DNA from: Paenibacillus aceti
GTDB taxonomy: Bacteria; Bacillota; Bacilli; Paenibacillales; Paenibacillaceae
Reading direction: 5' to 3'
Assembly (NCBI RefSeq): GCF_003614185.1
Contig: NZ_KZ987724.1
Location: forward strand, 4,123,068 to 4,187,067
DNA: 64,000 nt
A program made the translations under genes and the position numbers. Shown piece by piece: positions 19,014-24,802 of this stretch. Below the pieces are notes generated by a model, which was not told the DNA's origin, did not search any database, and saw only the letters and a program-made list of their open reading frames with translations. Numbering within the stretch: position 1 is the stretch's first letter; each line of letters opens with the position of its first letter.

Positions 19014-22000
19014 TTATGGCTTCATACTTATCCGTTTACGGCCTAACCATAGACCGAGAATGATCAGCCCAAGCCCCGCTAAATAGAACGGATAAGGACT
19101 GGCTTCTCCTGTTTTGGGAAGCGTGGGTACAGAAGCCTTCGATGACTTCGTCTGTGAGGTCTTACTCGGTGGTTCCGGCGTTTCTATGGCCGGTTGCTCT
19201 GGATTCGATGTCTGCGGGTCCGGCTCACCCCTCGGAATATCCTCATCCGGCACTTCTATCTCGCCAGGTGATGTTCCAGGATTGGACGGGGTTACCGGTT
19301 GCTCCGGACTATGATCCGTGGGATCAACCGAATGATCGGGATTCGATGGATAGCTCGGATAGCTCGGATTGCCCGGATTTTCTGGATAGGTTGGTGTAGA
19401 AGGCTCTACTGGCTTAACAGGCTCTTCCTTGCTGTTCGTCACGAGTACCTTTTTCATATTGTCCTCGCTCGTAATACTGGAGTCAATCGTTACGCTCCAC
19501 GTGGCCTGCTCGATCTTATATCCTTCTGGAGCGGCTAGCTCCTCCAGAATATATTCATCATACAGCAGCTTCGTAAACAGGATTTTGCCGTCTGCGTCCG
19601 TTGTCTTTACAACTGGCGTCCGTTTACCTGCTTTATCATAAAGCGCAAACTTCGCTCCTGCCAGTGGCTTCGTCTTATCAGCCTGATCAACCTTCGTTAC
19701 TTCGAGGCTTCCCGTTACGCCGCCTCCCGAACCTGAACCAGAGGAAGTACGAACAATAACCTCTTCCGTCGTTTCCCTCAGCTCAGTCTTCAGTTGATCT
19801 CCTTCAAGGGCCACTTTATTCTGTACTGTTTCCTTATCTTCAGCAGTAATGAAAGATTGATACTCCAAAATATAAGCCGTAGAGATATCGTCCGTGAACT
19901 TTAATTCAAACATCTCTTGATCCCCATCCAGCCTGGTGATGGTTAATGTATAGTCCTTGCCTTTGGTCAGTTCATCGGCCTTTTCTATCTCGCCGTCGGG
20001 ATGAACCTTGGCTGCATAGAGATGGAATGAATCCTCAATCAAGATTTGATTAGGGCTTGGATAATCGATGATCGTGGCGCCTGAAATATGCGACTGACCT
20101 TCATTGATACGAATCGACCAGTCGATTTTATGTCCATTCTGCACGCCGATCTTCTTCACGTATTCGCCGCCGTGCGGAACCGTCACACTACCGATCCAGG
20201 TGGCCGCCTTATCACTGCCGTTCCATAATTCAGCTGTATTATCAATATCCTTGACAATCAGTGAGCCCTGTAGCGATGTTCTGAACTCGATCCAATATGG
20301 AGATGAGATAGGACTAGTAAAATGAATAGACAATTGATTTCCGTTCGCTTCGGATGGTTCCGTCAACTCATATTGAGAAGCTGGTACTTCAGCGCCCTTC
20401 GCAACCCCATTTCGTTCCCCGGTCAGAGTCATCTCGAACACCTTAACCGAATTCGACACAAGCTTCTGCTCATGCTTCAGTACATCGGTAACGATCGCTT
20501 CAGCAAATGAGTTGAGATTGTAATTCATTTTGATGTTCCAGGTAATCTCTTTGCTGACAGGATCATAGCTCCCATCTTTGCCGCCGTTATTCTTCATGTA
20601 GTCGTCGGCGCCGAAGCTCGCATCCCGATCCTTCAGCTCTTGCTGCTTACCCTCCTCGATCCACGTCATGGAGGCTCGGTTCATGAAATCCAGATTTCGT
20701 TCCTTCAGCCAGTCGATGTTGAACTTCGTCTTATACCAGATCCTATACGTAGTATCAACAGTCGTGGAAAACTTGATCACAAAGCCACTGCGTACATCAT
20801 CATACTCGACCGTATAGTTAGACGTAGGAACGGTCTCTCCATCCGCCTCAATGATCACAGAATCCGGAATAAACTCAAGACCGCCCTGTGGGAACGTATC
20901 TGTAATGATTACATTCTCTAAACTGTGTTTGCTGCCATCTGGCTTTTTATCGCCATTGACTACGATGACCCATTCCGCCGTTTTTTGGGCAAAATCGACG
21001 GTCCAGACTCCTTTCACCAGACCACCGCTCTTCAAGATCGGGGTTGTTACTTCAACAAATGAATCCCCCGATTCAACCCTGTTCTTCACCTGTTGCCCAT
21101 CAGCAATCATCCGGTCGATCGGCTTCGTCTGGTATACGATGGTATATGGCGAATCAATATCCTGCTCAAATTGCAGCTTGAACCCATTCGTACCTGTCGC
21201 TGCAGCCGTGTATTCCTCCGATGAGACTAAATCCTTGGCCTCGGTCGAATTCCCCTTATATACCTTCAGTGAATCAGCAACCCATGTATGGATATCACTG
21301 AGCTGATCCGTAATTACCGCCTGGTCTCTGGGAATTTTCTGCTCGCTGAAGTTGTATTTCACCTTCCAGGTTATCATCCCGGTATCTGTATCCAAATCAT
21401 ACGATTTACTCAGAAATTCACCACGATCCACAGTTACCGTAGCGACCGACTGGACATCTCCTATTCCTTCCCCAGACAGTACAGCCGTGTTCTCGAAGCT
21501 CAGCTTCTCACCGGTAACCTTCGTCGAGAAGCGGATTTCATAAGCTCTGTTGATCGTTTCATCCTGAAATGCCAGCTCTAACCTGGCAGCATCGTCTGTA
21601 TTAACCGTATACTTGCCGGTATCGAGCTTGTCGCCAAGGACTGTCGATCCGTCGCCATTAACCTGCAAATAATAGACCTCTACAGAGTCCGCAATAAACT
21701 CCAGGCCTTCAGGCAATGTATCCGTGATAACGGCATGCTTGATTTTATCCAGTGACTTGTTGACCTGAATCGTCCAATCGATCTGATCCTTGCTAACCGC
21801 TATCCCTTGCTTATCAAGCAGCTTGCCACCCTGAGGCTTCAGATTCACGATAATGGTCTGTACCCCGCTTTTTAACGGAATGGCAATAATGACTTCTGTG
21901 CTTCCTGTAAGGACTTCCTTTGAAAATTCAGTGCGAATTTCCAGTCTGCCGCTTACATTGGAGTTGTTCTCCACATAATCATTGAAGGTCATAACCACTT

Positions 22001-22454
22001 TTCCGTTCCGATCGACGGTAAATCTGCCAACTTCGCCTTGACCGGCAACGAGTGGAGCGTCAATATCCGTAAAGATCTCAAACTGCGGCGGCAGCTCAAA
22101 AGTAAAGGTGTCCCCATTCTTATAACCGTGTCCGTTTGGAAGCTCCCATTCAAAGCTAAGGTTAACAGCTGCACCAATCTCCAGGCTACTGTCCGGATTA
22201 TAGACCGCATCAATCACCGTGCCGTTGACATCAGTTAACACTACTTTGGTTAAAATATTGTCTGTAATGGGAACTGACACGGTTGGGTCAGAAACATCCT
22301 CCGTCTCTGCATATACAGACTCCGTTACACTTACTGACTTCGTTACATTTTCTTGCTTACCAGTCGATGCATTGGCCGGCCAGTTGGCTACGCCAAACAA
22401 CGATTGAATCAGGAGCAACAGGACCACAATGATTCCAATTATTCTTGTCTTCAT
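19014..22454 (-). CDS. LPXTG-anchored, collagen-adhesin-like surface protein
   Basis: 1146 residues. The signal peptide ends near PANAS. The first domain (about 60-210) resembles the bacterial adhesion fold of Cna/Sdr proteins (NGDTFTFELPPQF). At least five repeats of about 130-150 residues follow, each with a pattern like ITWKVKYNF followed by VITDQLSD. These resemble collagen-binding or isopeptide-linked beta-sandwich modules. Near 960-1045 is one SpaA/Cna-B domain (SLEVTKVDQADKTKPLAGA to EELAAPEGYKIEQA). A Pro-rich wall-spanning stretch, LPKTG at 1112-1116, a hydrophobic helix and a positive tail complete a sortase substrate. The transglutaminase and tandem c-di-GMP riboswitches upstream suggest regulated surface attachment. 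Confidence 0.88.
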   Translation of the reverse strand: MKTRIIGIIVVLLLLIQSLFGVANWPANASTGKQENVTKSVSVTESVYAETEDVSDPTVSVPITDNILTKVVLTDVNGTVIDAVYNPDSSLEIGAAVNLSFEWELPNGHGYKNGDTFTFELPPQFEIFTDIDAPLVAGQGEVGRFTVDRNGKVVMTFNDYVENNSNVSGRLEIRTEFSKEVLTGSTEVIIAIPLKSGVQTIIVNLKPQGGKLLDKQGIAVSKDQIDWTIQVNKSLDKIKHAVITDTLPEGLEFIADSVEVYYLQVNGDGSTVLGDKLDTGKYTVNTDDAARLELAFQDETINRAYEIRFSTKVTGEKLSFENTAVLSGEGIGDVQSVATVTVDRGEFLSKSYDLDTDTGMITWKVKYNFSEQKIPRDQAVITDQLSDIHTWVADSLKVYKGNSTEAKDLVSSEEYTAAATGTNGFKLQFEQDIDSPYTIVYQTKPIDRMIADGQQVKNRVESGDSFVEVTTPILKSGGLVKGVWTVDFAQKTAEWVIVVNGDKKPDGSKHSLENVIITDTFPQGGLEFIPDSVIIEADGETVPTSNYTVEYDDVRSGFVIKFSTTVDTTYRIWYKTKFNIDWLKERNLDFMNRASMTWIEEGKQQELKDRDASFGADDYMKNNGGKDGSYDPVSKEITWNIKMNYNLNSFAEAIVTDVLKHEQKLVSNSVKVFEMTLTGERNGVAKGAEVPASQYELTEPSEANGNQLSIHFTSPISSPYWIEFRTSLQGSLIVKDIDNTAELWNGSDKAATWIGSVTVPHGGEYVKKIGVQNGHKIDWSIRINEGQSHISGATIIDYPSPNQILIEDSFHLYAAKVHPDGEIEKADELTKGKDYTLTITRLDGDQEMFELKFTDDISTAYILEYQSFITAEDKETVQNKVALEGDQLKTELRETTEEVIVRTSSGSGSGGGVTGSLEVTKVDQADKTKPLAGAKFALYDKAGKRTPVVKTTDADGKILFTKLLYDEYILEELAAPEGYKIEQATWSVTIDSSITSEDNMKKVLVTNSKEEPVKPVEPSTPTYPENPGNPSYPSYPSNPDHSVDPTDHSPEQPVTPSNPGTSPGEIEVPDEDIPRGEPDPQTSNPEQPAIETPEPPSKTSQTKSSKASVPTLPKTGEASPYPFYLAGLGLIILGLWLGRKRISMKP

Positions 22455-22698
22455 GAATCTCTCCCTTTAGTCTCTACATCACCCTCATAATGTTCGGTTC
22501 CGATCTTGCTAGTCGAGCGTGCGCAAATCGGGCCTCATATGTCACTGAATTGTATGCCGTCAAAAGAACTTCCCTGTCCATCACCTCCGCCATATTTTTT
22601 TGGCGCACGATTCATTATGTTTGTAGTTTCGTTCAGAACCAAATGGGCTTCTTGCATTATACCTGGGGAATCTTTACAATTTCTGAACAACACGAACA

Positions 22699-22729
22699 AG
22701 CCTTGGACCTTTCGTCCAAAGCTTGGGAG
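22699..22729 (-). terminator. Hairpin between transglutaminase and adhesin genes
   Basis: Arms CAAGCTTTGGAC and GTCCAAGGCTTG around a GAAAG loop on the minus strand, followed by a weakly U-rich TTCGTGTTGTT. It could be a leaky terminator allowing some read-through into the adhesin gene. The 288-bp gap may also hold an adhesin promoter, though I could not identify one. Confidence 0.55.
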
Positions 22730-22742
22730 AATTCTATTCGGA

Positions 22743-23549
22743 TTAGTAATATTTGGCTGCCGAATATTGAGAGGCATCCTTCATCATTTGAAATTCAGAC
22801 TTACTAGCTCTCCAGCCCGCATCGACGGTCGTATCCACGGTTACCCATTTGCCATTCAAGTAAACCTCATTCCAGGCGTGATATACATCGACGTATTGCG
22901 ACGTTCCCATCACAAGCTTAGTCGGTATGCCGATACTCCGCAGCATAGAAGCGAATAGAGAAGCATAGTCGTAGCAAATCCCTTTCTTCCCTGTCATCGT
23001 GCGATTAATATCAGGCAGATAGTCTGTCAGCTTGCTGGATGCAAGCGACTTGTCATATCGGATCGTTCCGATGATATATTCATAAATGGTCTGTACCCTC
23101 TCTTCATCCGATTGGGCAGACCGGGTTAACTTCTTCGCAAGCTGGATAGGCTTGTCCCCTTCGCTCCAATTGACGTTCTGTATAGAGTTCAGGAACACCT
23201 TGCTGTCATTCTCCAGTTGAAGCGGAACTACCGCTTTGTGACTAATCTGATATTTCGTACCGCTGACTTGTTCTAGCACGGTAACTGTATAATCCCCATT
23301 GCCCATTTGCAGTGGAAATACTTCCTGCGGCTTGCTAGCCGAAAGCACATAAGTATATTGGCTCTGATCCTTCGCGACAATAAGCTTCGTCTTGACACCA
23401 GCCTTCACATCATACCGGATGGCGATCATTCCACGGTCCAACTGCTCCAAGCCCAGCCAATCCGCAGATTGCGCGGCTTCTACACCCGGTACCGAAACCC
23501 AGCCCAATAACACAAAAAGTCCGACGATCATGATCAGTGTTCTGCGCAT
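22743..23549 (-). CDS. Secreted transglutaminase-like protein under c-di-GMP riboswitch control
   Basis: 268 residues with a signal peptide ending near VEAAQS. A beta-rich N-terminal part is followed by a transglutaminase-like cysteine-peptidase core: the Cys in GKKGICYDYASLFASMLRS near 195, the His in VYHAWNEVYLNGKWVTVD near 235, and the Asp in VDTTVD. All three catalytic residues are therefore present. Bacterial members act as transglutaminases, peptidases or acyltransferases on surface proteins. Two c-di-GMP-I aptamers lie in the leader, the second one directly against the ribosome site (GGGAG). The adhesin gene downstream could be a substrate (inference). Confidence 0.87.
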   Translation of the reverse strand: MRRTLIMIVGLFVLLGWVSVPGVEAAQSADWLGLEQLDRGMIAIRYDVKAGVKTKLIVAKDQSQYTYVLSASKPQEVFPLQMGNGDYTVTVLEQVSGTKYQISHKAVVPLQLENDSKVFLNSIQNVNWSEGDKPIQLAKKLTRSAQSDEERVQTIYEYIIGTIRYDKSLASSKLTDYLPDINRTMTGKKGICYDYASLFASMLRSIGIPTKLVMGTSQYVDVYHAWNEVYLNGKWVTVDTTVDAGWRASKSEFQMMKDASQYSAAKYY

Positions 23550-23562
23550 ACTATAAAACTCC

Positions 23563-23653
23563 CTTCGGTAGCCAGGCTGCCATTGACTTTACATCAAGAA
23601 GGCCCTGTAGCTTTGCGTCCTAGTCTTTCGACGAGTTTGCCGTTATCGTATTA
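23563..23653 (-). ncRNA. c-di-GMP-I (GEMM-I) riboswitch, promoter-distal copy
   Basis: Read on the minus strand, the conserved GEMM-I elements appear in order: ACGGCAAAC, the tetraloop hairpin CTCGTCGAAAGAC, GGACGCAAAGCTACAGGGCC, and the second stem ending GCCTGGCTACCGAA. The 3' edge (CCGAAGGGAG) runs straight into the Shine-Dalgarno of the transglutaminase gene. Ligand-dependent exposure or masking of the ribosome site is therefore the likely mechanism (inference). Confidence 0.9.
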
Positions 23654-23704
23654 GAGTTTCACGGAATATAATGGATGCTTGTCCATAAAAACAAAAAAAG
23701 CATA

Positions 23705-23796
23705 TCCATTCGGTAGCTGGCTGTCATTGACTTTCCGTCAAGAAGACCCTGTAGCTTTGCGTCCTTGCCTTTCGACAAGTTTGCCGTTATCGTGAG
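23705..23796 (-). ncRNA. c-di-GMP-I (GEMM-I) riboswitch, promoter-proximal copy
   Basis: Same element order as the distal copy: ACGGCAAAC, CTTGTCGAAAGGCAAG, GGACGCAAAGCTACAGGGTC and AGCCAGCTACCGAA. About 10 nt after it the transcript reads CTTTTTTTGTTTTT, a U-run suited to transcription termination. A GCATCCATT segment further on could pair with AATGGATATGC across that U-run. The two copies differ at many stem positions while keeping pairing, as expected of two functional aptamers. Confidence 0.9.
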
Positions 23797-23814
23797 TCGC
23801 TTTTTGTTGAGTCT

Positions 23815-23843
23815 ATCATATCAAACTAGTAAATTTCCATCAA
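23815..23843 (-). promoter_or_regulatory. Sigma-A-type promoter for the riboswitch leader
   Basis: Minus strand: TTGATG (23843-23838), a 17-bp spacer, then TATGAT (23820-23815). The predicted start near 23808 is about 12 nt before the first aptamer, giving a leader of about 260 nt. Confidence 0.7.
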
Positions 23844-23890: not shown

Positions 23891-24802
23891 TCAAATATTC
23901 TCAGCAACGTTTCGCGCCTGCTCGTCTAGCTTCTGAGCGAAAGTAACAATGCTGTTGAAGTCTTCCATAGTGACACGTATTTGCTTTTGGCTCTCTAAGA
24001 TCGAAGACTCAGCGCGATTGATTCCTTTTGAAATCTCAGATATTTCCTTCGTAATTCCTCCAATGGTTCCCTGAACCTTGATGATGGATTCAGACACTTC
24101 ACCGGATAGCTTGCGCACCTCCTTGGCTACTACGTCAAACCCTCTGCCATACGGACCCGCATGAGCGGCCTCAATCGCTGCATTTAAAGAAAGAAGATTG
24201 GTCTGAGATGCAATATTACGGATGGTTTCCACAATCCCCTGAATCAATTTGGCCTGCTCCTGTAGCCCCTTAAGTGTAAGAATGTTATCCTCTGAAATCT
24301 CTGCAATCCGATCCACGCCGAACAGAAGTTCCCGACTCCGATTAATTCCCACTTCTGCTTGCTGACTCAGAACTTGGGAGGTAGACTCCAATTCCTTAAC
24401 CACGGTAGCTAGGCTGAACTGACGTTCGGAAATGTCCGTTGCTATTTTTAATATGCCAATGATCTCAGAGTCCAGATCATCATATACCGGCATATAGGTT
24501 GCCTCTAACCACACTATTTCACCACGAGCATTTCTCCGCTCAACCTTATCCTGGAAGCTCTGCCCGGACAGTAGCTCACTCCAGAACTGCTCATAGTCTG
24601 GTGAACTTGCAAAGGAGTCAAAACATAAGTCCCGATGCTGCATTTTTAATATATCCTCAATGGAGTATCCCATCGCACTGGCGAATACCTCGTTAACATA
24701 GGTTACTTTTCGATCGATGCCGAAACGGATCATGGCAAGATTCCGTTCCATCGCCTTGACGATCAATTCGTTCGTTATCTGCTGTTTATTCATAGTTAGC
24801 AT
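23891..24802 (-). CDS. Soluble PAS-domain methyl-accepting chemotaxis-type signal protein
   Basis: 303 residues with no membrane segment. Residues about 20-130 form a PAS domain (VTYVNEVFASAMGYSIEDIL, then IIGILKIATDISER); a bound cofactor is possible. The rest is a short MCP signalling coiled coil with the hairpin-tip core ASQTNLLSLNAAIEAAHAG near 205, which contacts CheA/CheW. It is shorter than usual and has no obvious methylation arm on the N-terminal side. Start ATG 24802 has GGAGG 9 nt upstream. It precedes the c-di-GMP-controlled surface genes on the same strand but has its own terminator. Confidence 0.9.
   Translation of the reverse strand: MLTMNKQQITNELIVKAMERNLAMIRFGIDRKVTYVNEVFASAMGYSIEDILKMQHRDLCFDSFASSPDYEQFWSELLSGQSFQDKVERRNARGEIVWLEATYMPVYDDLDSEIIGILKIATDISERQFSLATVVKELESTSQVLSQQAEVGINRSRELLFGVDRIAEISEDNILTLKGLQEQAKLIQGIVETIRNIASQTNLLSLNAAIEAAHAGPYGRGFDVVAKEVRKLSGEVSESIIKVQGTIGGITKEISEISKGINRAESSILESQKQIRVTMEDFNSIVTFAQKLDEQARNVAENI

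Follow-up and report, generated by a model that had tools for sequence, protein, structure and literature searches.

A tandem c-di-GMP-I leader of a Paenibacillus aceti transglutaminase-like gene as a candidate two-level device, with one P1-extension design aimed at a U-run and at a Shine-Dalgarno sequence

Tandem c-di-GMP-I riboswitches are already known: the accessible parts of one survey count 347 doublets and 12 triplets, and in its dataset tandems of this class outnumber those of any other (PMC9481103). Tandem c-di-GMP-I leaders, the digital response and the bi-mechanism idea are likewise in print, as far as the available text of the papers goes (PMC9481103, PMC12452182, PMC4759541). 'Bi-mechanism' is a named category in the survey, denoting control of transcription and then of translation, and the table as accessible holds SAM riboswitches only, with the remark that the tandems of the survey were not comprehensively checked for this property (PMC9481103). 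The two-level action of c-di-GMP-I tandems was thus left unsorted in that source. The SAM-II/SAM-V tandems and some SAM-II doublets of that table also place transcription first and ribosome access second, although with another ligand and another fold, and no c-di-GMP-I pair stands beside them (PMC9481103). Among c-di-GMP-I systems, Bc3-5 of Bacillus thuringiensis resembles the present leader in carrying at least two complete aptamers; in the excerpted accounts it comprises three predicted transcription-type ON switches, each with a terminator, whereas here the second output is a Shine-Dalgarno (SD) sequence and the first lacks a separate terminator (PMC4759541, PMC9481103). The transglutaminase leader itself is not described in the accessible text of PMC12452182 or PMC11651100.

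Several other switches are instructive. Cd1 (OFF) and pilM (ON) have homologous aptamers, and strand competition around helix P1 decides between the two outcomes; their terminators are described as folding with downstream strands, unlike the leader studied here, and their ligand-binding windows, 61 nt for Cd1 and 25 nt for pilM, compare with 8 nt from aptamer end to U-run in the present case (PMC9262584, in the part available). The HMP-PP (thiS) riboswitch provides a precedent for an aptamer that overlaps a terminator stem (PMC6478431, in excerpt), there a small aptamer within a classic terminator that is activated by ligand (PMC7266159, in excerpt), while in the present leader the stem would carry a complete c-di-GMP-I aptamer as its cap. 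At the C. difficile ppep-1 (CD2830) class I switch a secreted enzyme is encoded near an LPxTG adhesin gene, CD2831, as here; the enzyme is a metalloprotease and not transglutaminase-like, and the CD2831 adhesin has a class II switch of its own (PMC11477304). The accessible text of the same paper presents the class I switches of C. difficile as transcriptional OFF switches (PMC11477304), and ppep-1 may by analogy be instructive for a secreted enzyme whose level falls with c-di-GMP.

The features by which this locus can be compared with these systems all lie on the minus strand of the window, that is, the whole 64-kb stretch of P. aceti DNA that was analysed.

23815 to 23843, minus strand: promoter, TTGATG, 17 nt and TATGAT, with TG preceding the -10 (extended -10); pattern scan
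23799 to 23805, minus strand: P strand of aptamer 1, AAAAAGC; sequence, duplex energies and coevolution with its target
23708 to 23794, minus strand: aptamer 1, c-di-GMP-I; RF01051 76.8 bits, RF03167 67.7 bits
23698 to 23719, minus strand: weak alternative stem CAGCUACC...GGAUAUGCUU, using aptamer 1's own 3' strand (pilM/Bc4-type); about -3 kcal/mol
23693 to 23701, minus strand: GC then a seven-U run; sequence (U-run UUUUUUUG, 23699-23692)
23653 to 23659, minus strand: P strand of aptamer 2, AAACUCU, pairable with GGGAGUUU; sequence and coevolution with its target
23563 to 23650, minus strand: aptamer 2, c-di-GMP-I; RF01051 70.3 bits, RF03167 63.7 bits
23556 to 23563, minus strand: SD and 3' arm of the P1 extension, GGGAGUUU; sequence
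22743 to 23549, minus strand: transglutaminase-like protein, 268 aa; Pfam Transglut_core E 3.4e-25, orthologues
22697 to 22725, minus strand: hairpin of 12 bp, its T tail weak, in the gap from the transglutaminase gene to the adhesin gene; pattern scan
19014 to 22454, minus strand: LPxTG collagen-binding-type adhesin, 1146 aa, downstream; Pfam Collagen_bind E 1.6e-77, SpaA, Big_8

The identity of the two aptamers is well supported by covariance-model score. A first-pass annotation had read two complete GEMM-I aptamers in this leader and named an Infernal comparison with RF01051 as the check, and the scores, 76.8 and 70.3 bits where the cut-off is 35, bear it out; in the whole window these are the only two places that cmscan lists above the Rfam gathering score, its clan filter having omitted two further matches to same-clan families at the same places. 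An alignment of 38 aptamers, both window copies included, shows more covariation than all 500 shuffles, with 97.1% of cells paired. Both copies have G in the alignment column that we take, partly by Vc2 numbering, to be position 20, and both read AACGGCAAAC there. A G at this position goes with c-di-GMP and an A with c-AMP-GMP, according to the accessible parts of two papers (PMC9481103, PMC7288161), and neither window aptamer has the A of the c-AMP-GMP (GEMM-Ib) type. The cut-off of 59 for RF03167, the c-di-GMP-I-GGC family, is passed as well (67.7 and 63.7 bits, E 7.4e-14 and 1e-12), and this is the family that cmscan lists for both aptamers, apparently because it was retained as best of its clan with E-value as the selecting criterion. 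Membership of both aptamers in that variant class, with a ligand other than c-di-GMP, is nonetheless highly improbable and was set aside: RF01051 yields more bits for each, position 20 is G in each, and at the base where the RF03167 consensus departs, with GACGCGAA, both window aptamers have GACGCAAA, like the RF01051 consensus, the use of this base as a class mark being a reading of the two consensus lines and not a definition found in the available text of PMC12452182. Both aptamers are thus c-di-GMP-I by covariance-model score, and they presumably bind c-di-GMP.

Read along the minus strand from 23843 to 23547, the leader consists of the extended -10 promoter, aptamer 1, the GC and seven-U run, a linker, aptamer 2, the SD and the AUG. 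Two further claims of the first-pass annotation hold in this layout, a promoter ahead of the tandem and an aptamer 2 that abuts the SD of the transglutaminase gene: the SD, GGGAG (23563-23559), begins at the last base of aptamer 2 and lies 9 nt from the AUG at 23549. The pattern scan behind the promoter found five promoter-like sites in 1.7 kb against 2.9 expected. Across related leaders with at least two aptamers the best-scoring -10 sits 18-22 nt ahead of the aptamer in 32 of 46, a count made with no shuffled control; the predicted start site would, from such distances, coincide with the P strand in most leaders, and in the window the P strand of aptamer 1 adjoins the predicted mRNA 5' end. 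The seven-U run begins 8 nt past the end of aptamer 1, and the run with its preceding GC is likely the transcription-level output of that aptamer and the 3' partner of its P strand.

Orthologous loci were drawn from 14 of 41 genomes of the genus, its own included (15 loci), and from a genome collection of which the best 80 of 103 loci were kept; the latter are mostly from Paenibacillus, with Saccharibacillus and a few Bacillaceae and Clostridia. The resulting 95 loci are not independent, as some occur in both sets (L024/L035 and L025/L037, for example) and many are closely related to one another. The 38 aptamers served to build a covariance model, which gave 137 matches when run over all 95 loci, and the locus counts rest on its coordinates: counting aptamers on the same strand within 700 nt upstream, 45 loci have two, 29 have one, one has three and 20 have none. 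A run of at least six U follows 43 of 47 non-last aptamers and 2 of 46 that are last in tandem, and in all 43 first aptamers with such a run it starts 6-9 nt past the aptamer end. If an SD is accepted from four bases upwards and a start codon is required with it, 43 of 46 last-in-tandem aptamers and 27 of 29 single ones are followed by the two. Under this loose rule 24 of 47 non-last aptamers qualify as well, so that position is separated by the U-run together with a strict rule of at least five bases (1/47 non-last, 19/46 last, 14/29 single) and not by the loose SD alone; the U-run seen after 14 of the 29 single aptamers lies, in those inspected, within the spacer from SD to start. What is new here, and well supported by comparison of the loci, is this common anatomy, in which non-last aptamers end at a U-run and last ones at an SD, the layout of a candidate bi-mechanism tandem. 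The letters of the P3 loop are often common to both aptamers of one leader (L036, L044, L055 and others), and the best match of 14 of 27 first aptamers is the second aptamer of the same leader, a likeness that suggests duplication or gene conversion. Upstream of the transglutaminase leader of L020 a further aptamer match lies on the opposite strand, with a weak one of 46 nt (2598-2817, +); these may belong to a divergent gene.

The U-run and the SD share a kind of partner, namely the strand just 5' of the aptamer, which extends helix P1. In the window AAAAAGC can pair with GCUUUUU, the GC and first five U of the run, and AAACUCU with GGGAGUUU. Duplexes of a locus with itself are stronger than those between loci at both positions: -8.05 versus -5.71 kcal/mol for SD-abutting aptamers (z -6.1, 0 of 10000 permutations, n=30) and -6.86 versus -5.59 kcal/mol for non-last or first aptamers (z -3.4, 12 of 10000, n=21). 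These tests used sets of 21 to 30 loci thinned by sequence difference, which lessens and does not eliminate the effect of ancestry. Seven of eight control region pairs were null; the eighth, one of four first-aptamer controls, set the P strand against the stretch just past the target (200 of 10000), a stretch that contains the end of the U-run. The duplex, ensemble and alternative-stem tests took aptamer positions from motifs, and the coevolution test was repeated on covariance-model coordinates. The P1 extensions coevolve with their targets at both aptamer positions, and examples of changed letters with the pairing kept were seen across loci.

The first-pass annotation had called the U-run after aptamer 1 fit for termination, and of this the U-run stands while a usable terminator hairpin is not confirmed. 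A pattern scan of the minus strand shows nothing terminator-like in the stretch that separates the two aptamers; there is no room for a separate hairpin, because the U-run starts 6-9 nt after the aptamer; and the alternative stem came to -3.1 and -2.8 kcal/mol in two computations, the latter against -12.9, -12.3, -21.3 and -11.1 kcal/mol in four further c-di-GMP-I leaders of this genome. An ordinary terminator after aptamer 1 was rejected on these grounds and on the comparisons of stems given below, and the alternative stem falls short of a pilM/Bc4-type terminator stem made from the aptamer's 3' strand.

This bears directly on a reading in which c-di-GMP turns transcription ON in the manner of pilM/Bc4 and aptamer 2 acts in either sense. 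In the ligand-free state the AGCC/AGCUACC 3' strand and the strand ahead of the U-run would form the terminator, and ligand would withhold that strand and let transcription continue, which is the known or predicted logic of Bc3-5, Bc2 and pilM in the accessible accounts. Some relatives do possess such a stem (L034 -7.7, L064 -7.9, L065 -6.6 kcal/mol), and in L065 the ligand-free ensemble gives it 0.49 against 0.45 for the P1 extension. Over the loci at large, however, stems drawing on the 3' strand of the aptamer do not surpass shuffled ones (mean -4.1 versus -3.8 kcal/mol, the control covering the first 12 of 24 loci with 10 shuffles each), and 6 of 23 loci reach -5 kcal/mol or below against one third of shuffles, two of the six (L018, L069) pairing into or past the U-run. 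The median for 42 distinct first aptamers is -3.9 kcal/mol, three of them at -8 or below, whereas 26 further aptamers of the genus (one top match per genome, with three transglutaminase leaders excluded) have a median of -9.2, with 14 of 26 reaching -8 and 8 of 26 without a stem; the search spans of 60 nt for first aptamers and 140 nt for the others favour the latter. The ligand-free ensemble, computed for 20 of 24 representative loci, puts the stem at no more than 0.14 in 19 of 20 (L030 being scored at an inner run of four U), and own-locus specificity is absent for the stem, a test of low power since the strand is nearly invariant. On the whole, ON control at transcription is rather unlikely.

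The reading we prefer, at a probability of about 0.4, is a homotypic two-level ('bi-mechanism') c-di-GMP-I device that is OFF at both steps. At each aptamer the short strand just 5' would pair with the element just 3' of it as a P1 extension. At aptamer 2, c-di-GMP would close P1, the SD would be buried and translation would fall; at aptamer 1, the closed, ligand-locked aptamer would itself be the stem set against the U-run, favouring pausing or termination, so that high c-di-GMP would lower the transglutaminase-like protein through both steps. The calculations establish the two aptamers, the split of outputs over the species and the coevolution of the P1 extensions; that the ligand binds, that either step is OFF and that the U-run terminates are inferences. 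The ligand can only help a P1 extension, because the extension is nested outside the aptamer, and translation turned OFF by c-di-GMP is the simplest reading for aptamer 2 because the extension covers the SD core and an enforced aptamer keeps the SD closed. At least 3 of the 4 SD core bases lie inside the P1 extension in 48 of 75 loci, and enforcing the aptamer fold leaves the SD less than 30% open at 30 C in 22 of 29 loci and at 37 C in 20 of 29; the anatomy would lean to OFF at the SD. For aptamer 1, ligand that favours termination or pausing is also the simplest reading, yet a weak one. In its extension only two G-C pairs adjoin the U-run, topped by an internal loop, which makes it a poor terminator by ordinary standards. 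Against an all-OFF device stand Bc2, an ON switch by experiment, and Bc3-5, predicted ON (PMC4759541), both as given in the accessible text. The first-pass proposal of a two-step gate, transcription and then translation, survives in its two kinds of expression platform, which are conserved over many loci, and not in the ordinary terminator that it assumed for aptamer 1; it named no direction of regulation.

Equilibrium folding makes no switch visible at either aptamer. The whole leader is no more stable than chance (z -0.78, 34 of 200 shuffles as stable), and over 29 loci the mean open fraction of the SD is 0.24 free and 0.22 with the aptamer enforced (about 0.01 in both states in the window), enforcement of the aptamer 2 fold closing the SD further in 8 of 29 loci and opening it in 5 of 29. 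Without ligand the first P1 extension is more than half formed in 13 of 20 computed loci, at 0.88 in the window. Any switching by the device would have to come from the energy of the ligand, co-transcriptional timing or competition with the ribosome, all of which lie outside these calculations.

That the first extension is mostly formed without ligand fits a leader in which the SD-abutting aptamer alone regulates and aptamer 1 is a duplicate, its extension pairing the mRNA 5' end for stability or its U-run pausing RNA polymerase. The 29 single-aptamer loci, 27 with SD and start codon, show the SD-abutting unit standing by itself, the likeness of first aptamers to the second of their own leader speaks for duplication, and in most leaders transcription is predicted to start at the P strand. 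Conservation nonetheless extends to aptamer 1, to its P1 extension and to a U-run at 6-9 nt, which would not be expected of a relic, and this account is quite unlikely. Opposite signs at the two steps, with antitermination by aptamer 1 (ON) and burial of the SD by aptamer 2 (OFF), would confine expression to mid-range c-di-GMP; the P strands do pair both with the strand beside the U-run and with the SD, and for the c-di-GMP-I switch Bc1 an incoherent control of transcription and translation has been put forward (PMC11218506). Such a scheme is decidedly unlikely: it requires a working terminator in the ligand-free state, of which most loci show no sign, and in the accessible text Bc1 does not respond to c-di-GMP in vitro, nor does downstream expression track c-di-GMP (PMC11218506).

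The leader is a compact and recurrent test case, in which one P1-extension design is aimed at a U-run and at an SD. Should aptamer 1 terminate through its own P1, its expression platform would be unusually economical; by the same token, a caution would follow against the naming of a stemless U-run as a terminator. A variation on the design occurs in relatives. Seven of the 45 two-aptamer loci combine a G20 first aptamer with an A20 second one (L018, L030, L032, L034, L063, L084, L096), whereas A is found in the first aptamer of none of the 45 (Fisher p 0.012, uncorrected for ancestry); two of the 29 single aptamers (L072, L098) also have A, and G20A is in this way confined to SD-abutting aptamers among the loci examined. 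Leaders of this type may read two dinucleotides, or one dinucleotide with a looser second site, and they offer a directly testable case of one leader possibly reading two. The composite picture, in which the closing helix of aptamer 1 serves as terminator stem, its twin buries the SD and some twins are G20A such that the levels would answer to different dinucleotides, is at present doubtful.

The controlled gene connects the leader with the cell surface. The transglutaminase-like protein has an N-terminus that looks signal-like by eye, and the C-terminal LPKTG of the downstream adhesin was read from its translation; the two genes, with the 12-bp hairpin between them, may or may not be coupled. 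An LPxTG tail is flagged beside the enzyme gene in 6 of 21 loci with neighbours listed, several more, the P. aceti locus among them, having a long adjoining gene cut at the locus end. Of seven neighbours picked by eye and then scanned, five are sortases and two are adhesins with the domain make-up of the window adhesin. The controlled gene is thus often near sortase and collagen-binding-type adhesin genes, and the leader bears on the way in which Gram-positive surface attachment is tied to c-di-GMP. Domain matches in the genome number seven GGDEF, three EAL and one sortase, and the presence of c-di-GMP is likely because of the first two. The gene upstream of the leader (23891-24802, minus strand) encodes a PAS plus MCP-signal protein. 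In L090 and L099 a single-aptamer transglutaminase gene directly precedes, by eye, ctsR-clpC-like genes of a stress operon.

The P. aceti genome holds a second tandem, L003/L005 (C1:4057813-4058098, plus strand), with another transcription-then-translation layout: its first aptamer has a strong ordinary terminator (-12.9 kcal/mol) and its second abuts GGGAGUU ahead of an AUG. Further c-di-GMP-I leaders of this genome are L004, L006 and L007. At L006 (C1:4063574-4063678, minus strand) the terminator stem starts inside the 3' strand of the aptamer, an ON-type arrangement. By eye, L006 precedes a surface-protein-like gene, and L004 and L007 precede chemotaxis-receptor-like genes.
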